Part shown: piece by piece, positions 32,936 through 38,429 of the stretch | Layout of the letters: the number at the start of each line of letters is the position of its first letter | Numbering within the stretch: position 1 is the stretch's first letter | Origin: Hyphomonadaceae bacterium ML37 | Lineage (GTDB): Bacteria; Pseudomonadota; Alphaproteobacteria; Caulobacterales; Maricaulaceae | NCBI GenBank assembly: GCA_027627685.1 | Contig: CP091241.1 | Coordinates: 2,480,396-2,544,395 of the forward strand | Length of the DNA stretch: 64,000 nucleotides | Direction of reading: 5' to 3' | The notes under the pieces: generated by a model | The model's database searches: none | What the model was told of the DNA's origin: nothing | Seen by the model: the letters and a program-made list of their open reading frames with translations, nothing else | Position numbers and translations under genes: made by a program

Positions 32936-33473
32936 GGGCCTGACGGCTCGCTCATCTCTTGTGTTTCCGGCTTTGGTTTGGGCTCAGGTGCAGCACTGGC
33001 TCCGCGCCCGTTTGTTGTCCCAGTCTGGGCGTTGGCCCATATCCGGGGCCCATTGCGCCAGCATTGAGCCGCCCCGGCGGGGGACAGGACTGGCCGGCGG
33101 CTCCCGGGCCGGCGTCGCCTTCCTCCGTCAAAAACAGCAGGGCTGCTGTGATTTCGTCGCGCCCGCGCTGACCCACCGGGCGGGAGAGGGCGAGAGTCTC
33201 CGGTGAGACTCCGCAGGGCCACTGTCCTCTTACCGTTCTTATGACTCTCATCAGTCTCATCCTCCGCCCTGGGCCATGGTCCGCCTTCCGCCCGGACATA
33301 TCCGGGACGCGCCACCATAGCCCCGCCCGCGGCGGGGGCGGACAAGCGGCGGACACGCGCGGCGCCGGCTGGCCGCCCGGAGGCCATTCCCCACCCCTGC
33401 CTTCCCGATACATCTCAGCCGCTCAGGCGTCAGAGCGGCCCAAACCTCCCCGCCCGCCGGCGGGTGAGGCCCG
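32936..33473. other. 538 bp without a gene; decayed palindromic repeats
   Basis: No credible gene. About 33018-33145 is a worn copy of the repeat found at 34.7-35.7 kb (CCCATATCCGGGGCCCAT, then CGGCTCCCGGGCCGGCG). CGGACATATCCGGGAC at 33292-33307 is a fragment. About 33388-33440 matches the partial copy at 35594-35667 with an internal deletion. 33181-33260 holds other low-complexity sequence I cannot place. Confidence 0.5.
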
Positions 33474-34583
33474 TCACTGCGCGCCGGTCTCCGCCTGATC
33501 GCGCACCGCCTCCAGCGCCGCCGCGCCGGCCTCGGGGTCGGCGCAGGCAAGGCGTACGCTGGAGAGCGCGTCTGCGCCCATGCCGTGTGCGCGCGCGCCG
33601 TTCGATTCGATCAACCATTGGCGGCTCTCGATCGCCTCGAAGCGAAAGATCAGCGTGACTGCGTCGTCGCCTCGCACCAGATCCGACCAGCTGATCGGAA
33701 TGCGCATCGTGCGCACATACCCGTAGTTCGGCGCGTCGGTCAGGTTCGCGAGCGTGACGTAGACCATCGGCTCGGGGGTCCCGCCCAGGCTTTCGCCGGA
33801 CATCTCATGGACGATGGAGTCTCCAAAGCGCGCATCGGCATCGTACTGCGCCATCAACACGAAAGGCGCGGCGGCAGGCATATCGGCGAGCGCCGCGTCC
33901 GGCGTGCAGGCGCTGACAAAGGCGTCAACGCGCGGATGATCCCATTCGGGCACCCCGTCGCCGATCTCGAAGGCGCGCACCGCGGCGCGCACCGGGTCGG
34001 CCGGTCCCCCGGCGGACGCCAGCGCGGCGTTCAGCAGGTTGGCGGCGCCCTGGGCATCCTGGCAGGCCAGGGCGACGCGCCCGCGCGCCATCACCGGTCC
34101 GCTGAAGGTGGGCTCGCCGCCCGCGTCCAGCAGCCAGACCCGGCCCTCCAGGCCGTCGCGGTCGGCATGGCCGGCCTGCACGAACAGCTCGCCGTCCTGG
34201 GCGAAGGCATGCACGGCGTCCGCGCGCGCGGTGTACCGCGTCAACGCGCCGTCCTCGCCCTCGGCGCCGTCACGGGCCGCATCGATCATCACCCCCTCTG
34301 CCGGGTCGCCCGCGAACCAGATCCGGCTTCCCCCTCCGGTCAGGGACGGCGCGAACCCGCACGCCGAATTCACCGCCGCGGCCGCGTTGTCAGCTGCAGG
34401 CGGGCTGAACAGGTCATACCGGCTCGGCTGCAACTGCGCCTCAGGCGCCACCGCCTGCGCCGGCGCTGCAGTGATCGCGCCACCCCCGCCGGCAAACCCC
34501 GCCTGATCGGCGCCCCACAACGCGCCCAGAGCAGCCGCCGGCGCCAGCACCGCCGCCAAAGCGGTGCGCACATATATACTCAT
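33474..34583 (-). CDS. secreted protein of unknown function
   Basis: 369 residues. A signal peptide or anchor lies at about 5-32 (LAAVLAPAAALGALWGA). The body has beta-rich segments such as RYTARADAVHAFAQDGELF near 140 and MVYVTLANLTDAP near 285. Four or more cysteines may form disulfides (SACGF, LACQD, SACTP, LACADP). It is Ala/Asp-rich with normal codon use for the window. I do not recognise the family. It is flanked on both sides by palindromic repeats and has no operon partner. Confidence 0.6.
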   Translation of the reverse strand: MSIYVRTALAAVLAPAAALGALWGADQAGFAGGGGAITAAPAQAVAPEAQLQPSRYDLFSPPAADNAAAAVNSACGFAPSLTGGGSRIWFAGDPAEGVMIDAARDGAEGEDGALTRYTARADAVHAFAQDGELFVQAGHADRDGLEGRVWLLDAGGEPTFSGPVMARGRVALACQDAQGAANLLNAALASAGGPADPVRAAVRAFEIGDGVPEWDHPRVDAFVSACTPDAALADMPAAAPFVLMAQYDADARFGDSIVHEMSGESLGGTPEPMVYVTLANLTDAPNYGYVRTMRIPISWSDLVRGDDAVTLIFRFEAIESRQWLIESNGARAHGMGADALSSVRLACADPEAGAAALEAVRDQAETGAQ

Positions 34584-34665
34584 GGAATTACCCCCTCAGT
34601 CCCTTGATGCCCGAAGCCTAGCCCAGCCGGGCCGCCGACACAAACTGCCCTCCTCGAATGGGCGC

Positions 34666-34775
34666 AACCCATATCCGGGCGCCATCGCGACACATCTCAG
34701 CCGCTCAGGCGGTAGACAGCATCGGTGGATCGGTCCCGGGCCTCCCTACGGTCGCCCGGGAAAACAAGATGGGTG
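34666..34775 (+). repeat. nested-palindrome repeat, copy 1 (5' end missing)
   Basis: It starts inside the left hairpin (CCCATATCCGGGCG) and runs through ACACATCTCAGCCGCTCA to the right hairpin CCCGGGCCTCCCTACGGTCG and GGAAAACAAGATGGGTG. It has the same order and orientation as copies 2-4. Confidence 0.8.
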
Positions 34776-34800
34776 TTTCATCCACACACCGCCCAACCCC

Positions 34801-34937
34801 CACCCCTGTCTTCCCGGAATTTGCGTCAGCAAATATCCGGGACCCATCCCCCATACATTTCAACCGCCTCGACAGCGGACAGGACTGGTGGATGGGTCCC
34901 GGCGCTCGCTACGCTCGGCCGGGAAAACAAGATGGGT
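34801..34937 (+). repeat. nested-palindrome repeat, copy 2
   Basis: Full unit: CACCCCTGTCTTCCCGG at the left edge, left hairpin CCCGGAATTTGCG / GCAAATATCCGGG, then GGGACCCATCC. About 45 bp of spacer is followed by GGATGGGTCCCGG, the right hairpin, and CCGGGAAAACAAGATGGG at the right edge. Outer and inner arms are inverted repeats of each other. Confidence 0.85.
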
Positions 34938-34972
34938 TGTTCTGAGGGATATAGCTGCATCAAAATCGCCCG

Positions 34973-35269
34973 ATGCGCGACTATAACTTCTATGTCTACA
35001 TCATGGCGAACCGGAAACAGGGCGCGCTTTATACCGGGATGACCAACGATCTGGTGCGCCGGGTGTGGGAGCATCGCGAGGGGATCGGCTCGGCCTTTGT
35101 GCGCCGGCACAAGGTGACGCGCCTCGTCTGGTACGCCCATCACAGCGACGTGCTGGAAGCGTACGCCCACGAACGCCGGCTCAAGCGCTGGCGGCGCGCC
35201 TGGAAGATCACCCTGATCGAAACCGAAAACCCCGACTGGCGCGATTTGACCTTTGACCTGACGCTCTAA
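34973..35269 (+). CDS. small GIY-YIG nuclease-family protein
   Basis: 98 residues, a single GIY-YIG domain. FYVYIMANRKQGALYTG (about 6-22) corresponds to the GIY and YIG strands, RRVWEHREG near 29 holds the conserved Arg, and AHERRLKRWRR near 64-74 the catalytic glutamate. It belongs to the short UrlA/UPF0213-like class, whose cellular role is unclear. It has no target-recognition domain. It is embedded between repeat copies 2 and 3, 35 bp and 30 bp away, suggesting the gene and the repeats are linked. A nicking role on the palindromes is a hypothesis only. Confidence 0.85.
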   Translation: MRDYNFYVYIMANRKQGALYTGMTNDLVRRVWEHREGIGSAFVRRHKVTRLVWYAHHSDVLEAYAHERRLKRWRRAWKITLIETENPDWRDLTFDLTL

Positions 35270-35299
35270 CCCCCCTTCCCCGGCTTTGATTAAATCCCC

Positions 35300-35436
35300 C
35301 ACCCCTGTTTTCCCGGAATTTGCGAAGCAAATATCCGGGACCCATCCCCCATAAGACCCAACCCCTCAAGCGGCTGAAAGCATCGGTGGCTGGGTCCCGG
35401 GTCTCCCTCCGGTCGCCCGGGAAAACAAGGTGGGTG
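35300..35436 (+). repeat. nested-palindrome repeat, copy 3
   Basis: Full unit with left edge CACCCCTGTTTTCCCGG, left hairpin loop GCGAAGC, GGGACCCATCC, spacer, TGGGTCCCGGG and right edge CCGGGAAAACAAGGTGGGTG. Confidence 0.85.
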
Positions 35437-35443
35437 TATCAAT

Positions 35444-35582
35444 CCCTCCCGCTGTCTTCCCGGAATTGGCGAAGCCAATATCCGGGACCCATCCCGACAC
35501 ATCTCAGCCGCCTCAACGGCTCAGAGGATCGGTGGATGGGTCCCGGGTCTCCCTACGGTCGCCCGGGAGAACAATTTGGGTG
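35444..35582 (+). repeat. nested-palindrome repeat, copy 4
   Basis: Full unit. The left hairpin shows paired changes against copy 3: AATTGGCGAAGCCAATA instead of AATTTGCGAAGCAAATA, so base pairing is kept. The right edge is CCGGGAGAACAATTTGGGTG. Confidence 0.85.
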
Positions 35583-35593
35583 TTTTGATTCCC

Positions 35594-35667
35594 CACCCCT
35601 GTTTTCCCGGAAACCGCGAAGCGGTTATCCGGGACCCTTCCCGATACATCTCAACCGCTAAAGCGCC
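35594..35667 (+). repeat. nested-palindrome repeat, copy 5 (3' end missing)
   Basis: Left edge CACCCCTGTTTTCCCGG and a left hairpin with new but paired stem bases (AAACCGCGAAGCGGTTA), then GGGACCCTTCC and spacer. The right hairpin is lost. Its tail resembles 33388-33440. Confidence 0.8.
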
Positions 35668-36874
35668 AGACCGGCCCAAACCGCCCGGCCCGCCGGGCCG
35701 GGACCGCTCGTGTGGCGTCCCGGATCAATACCGGGACGGCCTTGACGCGCGCTGAGCGGGTTTGGGGGAGAGTTTGGGATGGGGCGCAGGGGGAGGCTGA
35801 GAGGGTGGGAAATAGGTGTGTGTGTCCCCGGTTTGTCATGCCTGACGTGGGCGATCTCTGATCGCATTGGTTTCTACGAGTGCCCCATTGACCAGATAGT
35901 GACCGCCGCCTCGCTAAATTTTGCCTGCCGGTTCGCAACGATGTCTGGAGTCCAATCCGCCTCAGAAGCGGCATCTTGGGTGAGCATGATCTCTGACTTT
36001 GCAAGATCAGGCTTCTTCTTGGAAAATTCCGCATTCTTAATCTTTGTATTCAAACGCTTACACAGAAGCGTTAGATTTCCGATGCGATCTACCCAACGAT
36101 GATGGTCCGTCCAACGCTTCCCGTCCTCTGGCGTCTGGGGGTAAATGTGCTCAACATGCACCTTTGTGGGCGTCGAGACCTCTAACTCCTCAGTTGCTCG
36201 GCGCGCGCCCTCCAGCTTTTTAAGAAGATATCGCTGCACGCGACTTTTCGAAATAATAGCGGTGGCAAATGCAGCCTTAAAATGATCATCTGCGGGAGCG
36301 GCATCTCGTATAGATTTAGAAAACGCATCGAAGTCGCCGCTAGCTCTTAATTCACGAGCCGCTAAATATAGCACATTTTCAAGTTTGCTATTTTCACGTT
36401 GCCCGATGATCGAATATCTGACATAGAGATTAATCAGCAACCTCAGGCTAGGCTCTTTTTTTTCGTCCTCGTCCGATTCAAGGATCGCCATTATCGCGGG
36501 GAGCATGAGGTTTCCGCTTGCACCAAATTCTCGGAAATCATCGATTAGGTCACCGCAACCAGCCTCACTGTAAGATCCAGATATAATTTCTCTGTAAAGG
36601 TCTGAAGAATCGGCAAGTCCATCCGTGAAGGTTACACTGTCAATATCTGAGTTTGCAATTTCGTTTTTAATTTCGCGGTATAGGCTTTGCGTTTTAACAT
36701 CGCCGTGATTAGATATCCAATAATGTCTGATGAAGTTAGATATCTGTGTCTCGTTCTCAAAATCTAAGATTTTTGACCAGCTGTCGATTAGCGAGCCATA
36801 GCTATCGGCCTTCGCCCTCCTCATCAGAAGATTCTTCAGAAGATCTGGTGTTGATAGGCCAATGCCGCGATCAT

Positions 36875-37327
36875 TTAGGTGCTGTTGACAAAGTACCGGA
36901 ACCACAGGCGGATTGAAGCGAGATGGATGAAGCCGAGATAGCTGTCGGCGGTCTTGTCGTAGCGTGTGGCGAGGCGGCGTGAGCAGCGCAGCTTGTTGAA
37001 GCACCGCTCGATGCGGTTTCTCAGCCCATAGACGAAGTCGTCGATCTGGACGGGGTTCTTGCGGTTTCGGCGCGCCGGGATCATCGGCACGGCGCCGGCG
37101 GCTTCCAGCGATGTTCGGATATTGTCGCTGTCATAGCCTTTGTCGGCCAGCAGGACGCGCGGGACTGGGCCATGCGCGGCCATCACCGCCTCATAACCTT
37201 TGTAGTCGGAGACTTCACCGCCGGTGATCTCAGCGGCTATGGGCAGCCCTTCAGCGTTGGTGCGAAGGTGTATTTTGGTCGTGAAGCCACCTTTTGAGCG
37301 CCCAAAACCCTGTTTTTGAGTCCCCCT
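36875..37327 (-). CDS. IS5-family transposase, frame B (C-terminal part)
   Basis: The open frame runs from just after a TAA at 37328-37330 and encodes GFGRSKGGFTTKIHLRTNAE, then LLADKGYDSDNIR with the second catalytic Asp, and NRIERCFNKLRCSRRLATRY with the Glu of the DDE triad (Y-(2)-R-(3)-E-like region). The first ATG is at 37186, too late for the conserved part, so it is expected to be reached by a -1 shift from frame A. The stop codon TAA uses the duplicated target TA plus one base of the host gene. Confidence 0.85.
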   Translation of the reverse strand, partial: RGTQKQGFGRSKGGFTTKIHLRTNAEGLPIAAEITGGEVSDYKGYEAVMAAHGPVPRVLLADKGYDSDNIRTSLEAAGAVPMIPARRNRKNPVQIDDFVYGLRNRIERCFNKLRCSRRLATRYDKTADSYLGFIHLASIRLWFRYFVNST

Positions 37328-37726
37328 TTAGCGCCCGCAGCCTGATGGTGCGCGCGAACGATAGTGGAATCGACCATTTGAAGACTGTCGGGTACGGCCC
37401 CGCTCTCGCCCAGCGCTTCCAACATCACCTCCCACACGCCTGACAGCGTCCAGCGGCGGAACTGGCGGTAGACCCGCGTCCACGGACCGAAATAGTCGTG
37501 AAGATCACGCCAGGGCGCGCCGGTGCGCGCGATCCAGAACACGCCGTCCAGCACGCGGCGATGATCAGAAGGCGGGCGGCCCCGCTTGCCTCCGGTCGCC
37601 ACCACGAAAGGCGCAAAGAACGCCCACTCCTCGTCCGTCATCAAACCGCGAACCAAGACCACCTCCCAAAAGCCAGTCTTGAATCACGCTTCGGGCGGGT
37701 TGGGAATCCACTTCGTCAACAGGTCC
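36878..37726 (-). mobile_element. IS5-family insertion sequence, IS427-type, 849 bp
   Basis: The ends are GGTGCTGTTGACAAAG (36878-36893) and, on the other strand, GGACCTGTTGACGAAG (37711-37726), which match at 13 of 16 bases. A TA dinucleotide is duplicated at 36876-36877 and 37727-37728. It carries a two-frame DDE transposase on the minus strand. The TA duplication, length and split frame fit the IS427 group. It interrupts the DUF262/DUF1524 gene. Both reading frames are otherwise intact, so recent insertion is likely. Confidence 0.9.
37237..37662 (-). CDS. IS5-family transposase, frame A (N-terminal part)
   Basis: 141 residues. DUF4096-type start LMTDEEWAFFAPF, then GAPWRDLHDYFGPWTRVYRQ and MVDSTIVRAHHQAAGAKGG, which holds the first catalytic Asp. 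It overlaps frame B by about 90 bases. A -1 shift in the G- and A-rich overlap (for example near AAAGGGGGA or CTCAAAAAC) joins the two into one transposase. Whether the shift is programmed or damage cannot be told by reading. Confidence 0.85.
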   Translation of the reverse strand: MVLVRGLMTDEEWAFFAPFVVATGGKRGRPPSDHRRVLDGVFWIARTGAPWRDLHDYFGPWTRVYRQFRRWTLSGVWEVMLEALGESGAVPDSLQMVDSTIVRAHHQAAGAKGGLKNRVLGAQKVASRPKYTFAPTLKGCP

Positions 37727-38429
37727 TAGTGTCTCGAAAACTTCGGCTGCCGCATCTTCGTCCACTGAAACGACAGAGATAAGCGTGAAATCGCGCAAAA
37801 GTTTTTTCTGAACGTTGAGCGACCAGTTATAAGATTTCTTGTTATCCCCGGCGCTCCAAACTTCTTCAAATTTTGATGCGAAATAGTCTCTGGCCCTCAG
37901 TATCAGATGATGAGACGCATGCTCAGGGGCTGGTTCCTTATAATCATCAGTCTTAGGAGTAAGAATTAACCTCCTAAAAAACTCGCGGTCATAGTGATTA
38001 AGAGAAATTTTATATGTTGTTCTCTCTGTGTCATAATCAAAATCAGACAAGTACTTCCTATGAAGGTCTTCCGCCGCACTAGAATTGTGTCTTTTCAAGA
38101 AATCTCGAATTACAGATAACAATATAGCAGAAGTCGCCATTCTCTGTTGACCATCCAAAAGTAGGTATTCACCAGCTTTTGAATTTACGATTACGATAGA
38201 GCCTATGAAGTATTCAGATATGTCCCGATCAATTGATCGCATTAGGTCGAGCCAGAATGTTTCAACATGCTGGCTTTTCCAGCTGTAGCTTCGTTGCCAA
38301 TTTGGAACCACCAGAGGCGGATTGGTTAGCGTGAGCAGCTCGCTGATAGTTCGCTTCTCAGGAGTGTAGGTCGGGGATTTCGTCACCGTTCACCTCGTGT
38401 CATTTGAAACCTGCAGGAAGAGGATAGCC

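Follow-up and report, generated by a model that had tools for sequence, protein, structure and literature searches.

According to the survey of Di Nocera (2013, PMC3733652), short bacterial palindromes include two large superfamilies, one of them the CGTC REPs, which are reported to 'lack a dedicated transposase'; in the passages of that survey on which we draw, no RAYT was found to be flanked by them. Most CGTC REPs occur in alphaproteobacteria, and the superfamily includes dRS3 of Neisseria as well as RPE-4 and RPE-6 of Rickettsia conorii. The features by which they are described comprise a CGTC tag (in many cases TGTC or CCTC), a stem of 8-9 bp that starts with a paired AT, a loop of 4-5, a CCA tail, and the occurrence in inverted pairs (PMC3733652). 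The second system of relevance is that of REPtrons, where, as far as the source used here goes (PMC6006769), several REP types may be present in one genome, each with its own gene. A survey of GIY-YIG nucleases (PMC1564403) describes stand-alone prokaryotic Slx1-like forms, and its text is free of the word stem 'palindrom'. Among the matches listed in our literature search, which had subscription journals and most preprints outside its scope, there was no paper joining GIY-YIG genes with REPs.

The DNA stretch analysed here (64,000 nucleotides of the genome of Hyphomonadaceae bacterium ML37, referred to as the window) contains a 98 aa stand-alone GIY-YIG nuclease gene (34973..35269, plus strand; Pfam GIY-YIG, E 6.7e-15) surrounded by an array of repeats, namely four inverted pairs of ~120 bp and a half copy, all in a single orientation. 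The first copy (34646..34766, plus strand, as all the remaining ones; 79.4 bits with our covariance model) has a degenerate left arm. The second (34807..34929; 117.1 bits), which is one of the 19 copies of our alignment, the third (35306..35427; 115.9 bits), and the fourth (35453..35573; 129 bits) are complete inverted pairs, while the fifth (~35592..35665) is represented by its left half only (blastn, 80% identity over query positions 1-75). Each complete element consists of two inverted hairpins, with outer arms TGTYTTCCCGG and CCGGGAARACA, hairpin A, inner arms CCGGGACCCATCC and GGATGGGTCCCGG, and hairpin B. The initial annotation had described five copies of the same orientation, three of them full, each with nested outer and inner arms and a pair of local hairpins, and our results agree with it in these respects; the unit length of ~137 bp that it gave has to be corrected, as the aligned core spans 117-133 bp and the value of 137 bp counts flanking linker. 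The nuclease gene is situated in the linker between complete head-to-tail pairs, outside any one pair. In the 3.04 Mb genome of this strain, 25 blastn rows for the repeat correspond to 23 distinct places, five of which fall within ~1 kb around the nuclease gene of the window; the occurrence of the repeat in the genome and its concentration at the gene are both beyond chance. The single Rfam match up to an E value of 1 (chrB-b, 21.2 bits, E 0.1) was rejected as being under its cut-off of 36.5.

Results of our analysis demonstrate that the pairing within the window repeat is conserved. Four of the 19 aligned copies, when folded as single-stranded DNA, gave z values of -3.4 to -6.3, which no dinucleotide shuffle equalled, and two of these four copies fold best as a four-way junction, the remaining two as a long interrupted hairpin. 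Over the 19 full copies, 89.5% of cells are paired (82.3 in shuffles), 58 cells are changed on both sides (25.9 +/- 3.7 in shuffles and at most 23 in slid structures), and the covariation score is 0.217 versus 0.091. Three of five structure measures beat all shuffles; the two that show no clear excess are the number of pairs with a double change (12, reached by 41 of 500 shuffles) and of further pair types (28, reached by 243 of 500). The earlier remark that stem bases of the left hairpin vary with pairing kept is substantiated by double compensatory changes in four of the six pairs of hairpin A, each in 7-11 of the 19 copies. The signal of the right hairpin B is weaker, as its main helix is 63% paired.

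The nuclease gene of the window looks real and looks to be under purifying selection, with dN/dS values of 0.08-0.20 among its orthologues in the strain's own genome (G000) and in G012 and G009, and of 0.12 between the copies of a second paralogue in G000 and G006. Residues Y9, Y20, R30, H34, E67, and N86 are invariant across 24 aligned proteins of the family, and we take them to be the residues (Tyr, Tyr, Arg, His, Glu, and Asn) that a member of the GIY-YIG superfamily should have. Membership in this superfamily is indicated both by the Pfam match and by the conserved Tyr, Tyr, Arg, and Glu (Y9, Y20, R30, E67). The Pfam search revealed no domain beyond GIY-YIG. NCBIfam gave no match for the window gene and weak matches to group I intron endonucleases for 11 of 27 relatives, and a search of plasmids returned 32 records, all of <60% identity.

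The AlphaFold model of the protein (pLDDT 92.9) has UPF0213 1zg2 as the nearest structure (E 2.2e-4), followed by Slx1 chains (E 0.02-0.08) and, at E values from 0.1 upward, by UvrC domains, and this predicted small GIY-YIG fold suggests a likeness to Slx1 and UPF0213. Slx1 is known to process branched DNA (cf. PMC1564403). Unlike Slx1, the 98 aa protein is devoid of a RING domain and has an invariant Asn near the C-terminus; the Slx1-like forms are set apart by their lack of the Asn that the UvrC lineage has at the C-terminus, to which the invariant N86 may or may not be equivalent. Penelope elements and GIY-YIG homing endonucleases are likewise instances of mobile DNA using a GIY-YIG enzyme (cf. 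PMC1564403), but the 98 aa protein contains neither a reverse transcriptase nor the extra NUMOD DNA-binding domain by which such homing endonucleases are recognized, and comprises the GIY-YIG domain only.

As regards the repeats, REPs located beside many relatives of the gene resemble CGTC REPs in having a tagged hairpin, a CCA tail, and inverted pairs, and the window repeat has a CCA tail (GGGACCCATCC inner arms) and 19 full inverted pairs. The tags of the window repeat are TGTC or TGTT and may be variants of the CGTC tag. In contrast to CGTC REPs, the window repeat has longer loops and a longer hairpin whose stem starts with TTCCCGG, i.e., with TT in place of AT, so that the 8-9 bp stem beginning with AT is absent from it; REPs of relatives, such as those of G111, do have the AT stem. 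Among the REPs of relatives, CGTC and TGTC are frequent tags, and TCTC, GCTC, and CGTT occur as well. The similarity to REPtrons and to the REPIN-RAYT system concerns the flanking of the gene by its own REP type, the scattering of inverted REP pairs, and the presence of several REP types per genome. The difference concerns the enzyme, which is a 98 aa GIY-YIG nuclease and not an HUH/Y1 tyrosine transposase, and the REP tag, which is CGTC-like and not GTAG. An HUH/Y1 transposase gene flanked by REPs, which defines REPtrons, was not found: RAYT (PF01797) has no match in the strain's genome (E up to 1) or in any of the 15 genomes of the genus including it, and is present in eight of 61 relatives.

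The organization seen in the window recurs at loci of the nuclease family in many phyla. We analysed the best 80 of at least 517 family loci, as ranked by similarity to the window protein; five of them, with the gene ≤350 bp from a contig end, were dropped, which left 75 scorable loci. At the 80 loci, CGTCATCCC occurs 1.44 times per kb up to 100 bp from the gene versus 0.024 times at 3-6 kb (~60x), CGTCATTCC occurs 1.31 versus 0.012 times per kb (~109x), and three related REP motifs are 21 to 62 times denser near the gene. No enrichment near the family genes was found for CGTCATTGC and CGTCGT, and TTTTCCCGG, the window's own motif, is rare there. The detector of tagged stem-loop REPs overlooks variants, as it calls for an exact stem of 7 nt. 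Outward-facing tags within 300 bp on both sides, i.e., the REPtron-like arrangement of a gene between two REPs of its own type in inverted orientation, were detected at 35 of the 75 family loci, although some of these pairs (e.g., at L128, L145, and L156) may be chance stem-loops. The corresponding numbers are 4 of 277 other ORFs of the same loci (Fisher p ~6e-23) and 1 of 68 other ORFs with gaps on both sides (p ~3e-11), both tests ignoring phylogeny. According to record titles, the 35 loci include those of Lysobacter, Aeromonas, Herbaspirillum, Duganella, and alphaproteobacteria, and also of Neisseria, Elusimicrobia, Kordia, and Draconibacterium. It is also common for both flanks of a family gene to have REPs that point inward (24 of 75, versus 6 of 277 other ORFs and 3 of 68 with gaps on both sides), because many flanks contain whole pairs. 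At ten of the 75 loci, no REP was detected within 300 bp.

A comparison within the relatives of the strain gave a similar picture, and this sample partly overlaps the 80 loci, since four matches are 100% identical over whole stretches. Outward-facing flanks were found in 14 of 30 family members versus 2 of 29 weaker GIY-YIG hits, and any REP in 23 of 30 versus 5 of 29; the 30 include one unscorable locus at a contig end (L063), so the Fisher test uses 29. The 29 controls are 28 hits of the relatives with E above ~1e-13 and one other, with a few weak hits or fragments left out. Most of them look UPF0213-like, a label assigned here, and such weaker hits are mostly without REP flanks; L176, one of the two flanked controls, resembles a degraded family member. 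Two loci (L188 and L190) were scored on the wrong strand, which shifts the gene ends and leaves the two-sided test unchanged. Thus, the expectation that full units cluster at GIY-YIG genes of this subfamily has been borne out in the genus and beyond it, and the proposal of a GIY-YIG-linked repeat system other than that of RAYT is supported by the flanking REPs at family loci and by the lack of RAYT in the 15 genomes of the genus. At two other loci (L194 and L197), GIY-YIG genes of another subfamily stand beside a different, CCTCATCCTGAGG-type repeat, which may possibly be another gene/repeat pairing.

Several observations indicate that the REPs and the gene between them form one unit. The two REPs of a unit share on average 9.46 of 11 letters versus 7.91 between loci, and the 10 bases inside the REPs share 5.6 versus 3.6 (permutation p 2e-4 in each case, 35 units); 14 of the 35 units are 360-385 bp long. 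REPs of the same locus are also more alike than those of different loci when only paralogues of one genome are compared (8.8 vs. 5.9 of 11; p 0.007, permutation on 12 loci of five genomes; 17 of 51 loci were usable), and there is a tendency for each paralogue of a genome to have a REP type of its own. The strain studied here is a case in point, as its second GIY-YIG gene (genome positions 944746-945012), located between what we presume to be recR and dehydrogenase genes, is associated with a REP type different from the first. A strict pattern based on the REPs of this gene matches at four places in the genome, namely two beside the gene, which match by construction, and one 68-bp pair. Gene-less pairs in G074 and G099 resemble, by eye, the gene unit at their inner ends, which is expected of derivatives with an internal deletion. 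G024 and G027 each carry related units at separate places, and related units of congeners G010 and G003 are located at different sites, as their flanks show no homology for 1.25 kb in both directions. Target duplications are absent at 24 of 25 compact units, and the one 3-base match compares with 0.2 expected. In two congeners (L056 and L058), the unit lies in the same neighbourhood with a ~500 bp shift relative to the shared flanks, and in two betaproteobacterial records (L113 and L170), it directly precedes the start of a gene that we take to be sucD-like, which hints at a recurrent site. Taken together, the association of the gene with the REPs and the unit structure are nearly certain.

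At the level of whole genomes, the strict CGTC-REP pattern is present in 20 of 115 genomes of the class and the gene in 37, while the reversed strict pattern is absent from all 115. The gene is found in 16 of the 20 genomes with the strict pattern versus 21 of the 95 without it (p 1.7e-6, phylogeny ignored). The pattern is missing in 21 of the 37 gene-bearing genomes, including that of the strain studied, whose repeats are a variant, and four genomes (G105, G111, G160, and G164) have strict REPs without the gene. Among the 16 genomes that have both, six have a strict REP no more than 500 bp from the gene and eight have none there, with G093 left out and G166 partly covered; variant REPs were seen by eye beside the inspected genes of two of these eight (G072 and G150). 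The strict REP near the gene of G061 is the sole one in its genome, and in G074 and G099, strict REPs flank the gene on both sides, the unit of G074 measuring 355 bp.

Closer to the strain, repeat-model matches were found in 44 and a protein match in 48 of 61 relatives, and the median number of repeat matches per genome is 13.5 in those with a protein match (n = 48) versus 0 in those without it (n = 13; p 0.019, kinship ignored). Such matches lie within 200 bp of the gene in the case of the closest orthologues (G012 and G009) and also of more distant ones (G049 and G016, 57 and 55% identical). Three members of the genus have no protein match: G004, a small assembly, is free of the repeat as well, whereas G001 and G013 (a fragmented assembly) retain 27 and 35 matches, respectively. 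The idea that genomes lacking the gene lack the repeat therefore agrees with the medians across the 61 relatives and with G004 and fails in G001 and G013. We abandoned strict co-occurrence of gene and repeat because of these two genomes and G111; the repeats that G001 and G013 keep without the gene point to a link that is historical or operates in trans.

At the locus of the window, next to a gene that we take to be thiC, repeats and the nuclease gene are present in G000 and G012, and one pair without the gene is present in G001. The site next to the presumed recR gene (L235, G000:C1:943800-946000; L221 in G012) contains a unit of the second type in G000 and G006, a pair of the first type in G012, and a short remnant at most in G001; it is a shared insertion hot spot. 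Judged by sequence comparison, presence and absence at both sites would fit gain and loss, and the comparisons of these two sites yielded no clean empty site with a target sequence. The left edge of repeat copy 1 coincides with the end of a segment missing in G012 (alignment break at window 33407/34645), and the counterpart locus of G012 likewise terminates in a half copy. The missing segment, 33407-34645, carries a 369 aa gene (33474-34583, minus strand) without a Pfam match, and because it stops at copy 1, REP arrays seem to attract insertions. On the other side, between the array and thiC, lies a GmrSD-type restriction gene (35874-38386) that is also missing at that place in G012 and in which an insertion sequence of the IS4/5 type (36875-37662) separates an N part (37565-38386) from a C part (35874-37004).

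We consider it fairly probable that the gene and the repeats form one module of a selfish type, analogous to REPtrons, with a GIY-YIG nuclease in place of RAYT. The action of the nuclease on the repeat is inferred from the architecture, from Slx1 as a relative acting on branched DNA, and from the four-way junction of the pair. That the nuclease processes its REPs and thereby spreads them would be the most economical reading, and we find it rather likely. In compact form, the module spans ~360 bp and comprises a tagged hairpin (REP), the nuclease gene of ~290 bp, and a second REP of that type in inverted orientation. REP pairs without a gene, such as the 120-bp elements of the window, would be its non-autonomous derivatives. 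A pair that is single-stranded or extruded may fold into hairpins that meet at a four-way junction, where the nuclease would nick in a structure- and sequence-dependent manner, and repair or replication would then copy the unit elsewhere, without target duplication. The main facts against this simple model are the repeats in gene-less genomes and the loci without detectable REPs on both sides.

The leading alternative is that the GIY-YIG gene is a free-standing endonuclease of the homing type inserting into REP-rich intergenic DNA, with REPs as a landing site that spreads otherwise. The position of the window gene in the linker between head-to-tail pairs, the persistence of repeats longer than that of the gene, and the 369 aa gene and GmrSD locus at the array edges, both missing in G012 and thus suggesting that REP sites attract insertions, would all be accounted for. 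Nevertheless, matched REPs with matching inner ends in the gene units, the tendency of paralogues of one genome to differ in REP type, the restriction of the strain's strict second REP type to its gene and one pair, and the lack of any domain besides GIY-YIG in the protein argue against this explanation, which we regard as unlikely. Still less probable is that the REPs serve the flanked gene as terminators or RNA-stability hairpins selected there, neither REP nor gene being mobile. REPs do lie near both gene ends and are able to form RNA hairpins, and the passages of Di Nocera (2013, PMC3733652) used here argue that many REPs act as RNA, but such pairs flank few other genes of the same loci (4 of 277), similar pairs exist without the gene, and related units occupy different sites in congeners. 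That the repeats are RAYT-driven REPINs with the GIY-YIG gene as a passenger, as their REPtron-like architecture of inverted REP pairs and a REP-flanked gene might suggest, is barely credible given the scarcity of PF01797 described above, its lack of significant enrichment in strict-REP genomes of the class (6 of 20 vs. 15 of 95; p 0.20), and the lack of RAYT flanked by CGTC REPs in the consulted part of the 2013 survey (PMC3733652).

With these data, a specific and testable candidate enzyme can be named for CGTC REPs, for which the 2013 survey, in the part used here, found none (PMC3733652). The data suggest that the enzymes dedicated to REP modules are of two folds unrelated to each other, and for many small GIY-YIG proteins that stand alone and have no assigned role, they indicate a likely substrate. 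A further-reaching proposal, which we put forward only tentatively and with some doubt, is that the REP-gene-REP units, ~360 bp long, constitute autonomous transposons, which are mobilized by a stand-alone GIY-YIG nuclease with REP hairpins or four-way junctions as its targets, and that these units gave rise, as miniature derivatives, to the CGTC REPs found in alphaproteobacteria and to the related ones of Neisseria and Rickettsia. To our knowledge, ~360 bp is less than the size of any known bacterial insertion sequence. If this proposal were true, the GIY-YIG nucleases would represent a new class of transposition enzyme, and the demonstration of movement would make these units a new kind of minimal transposon.
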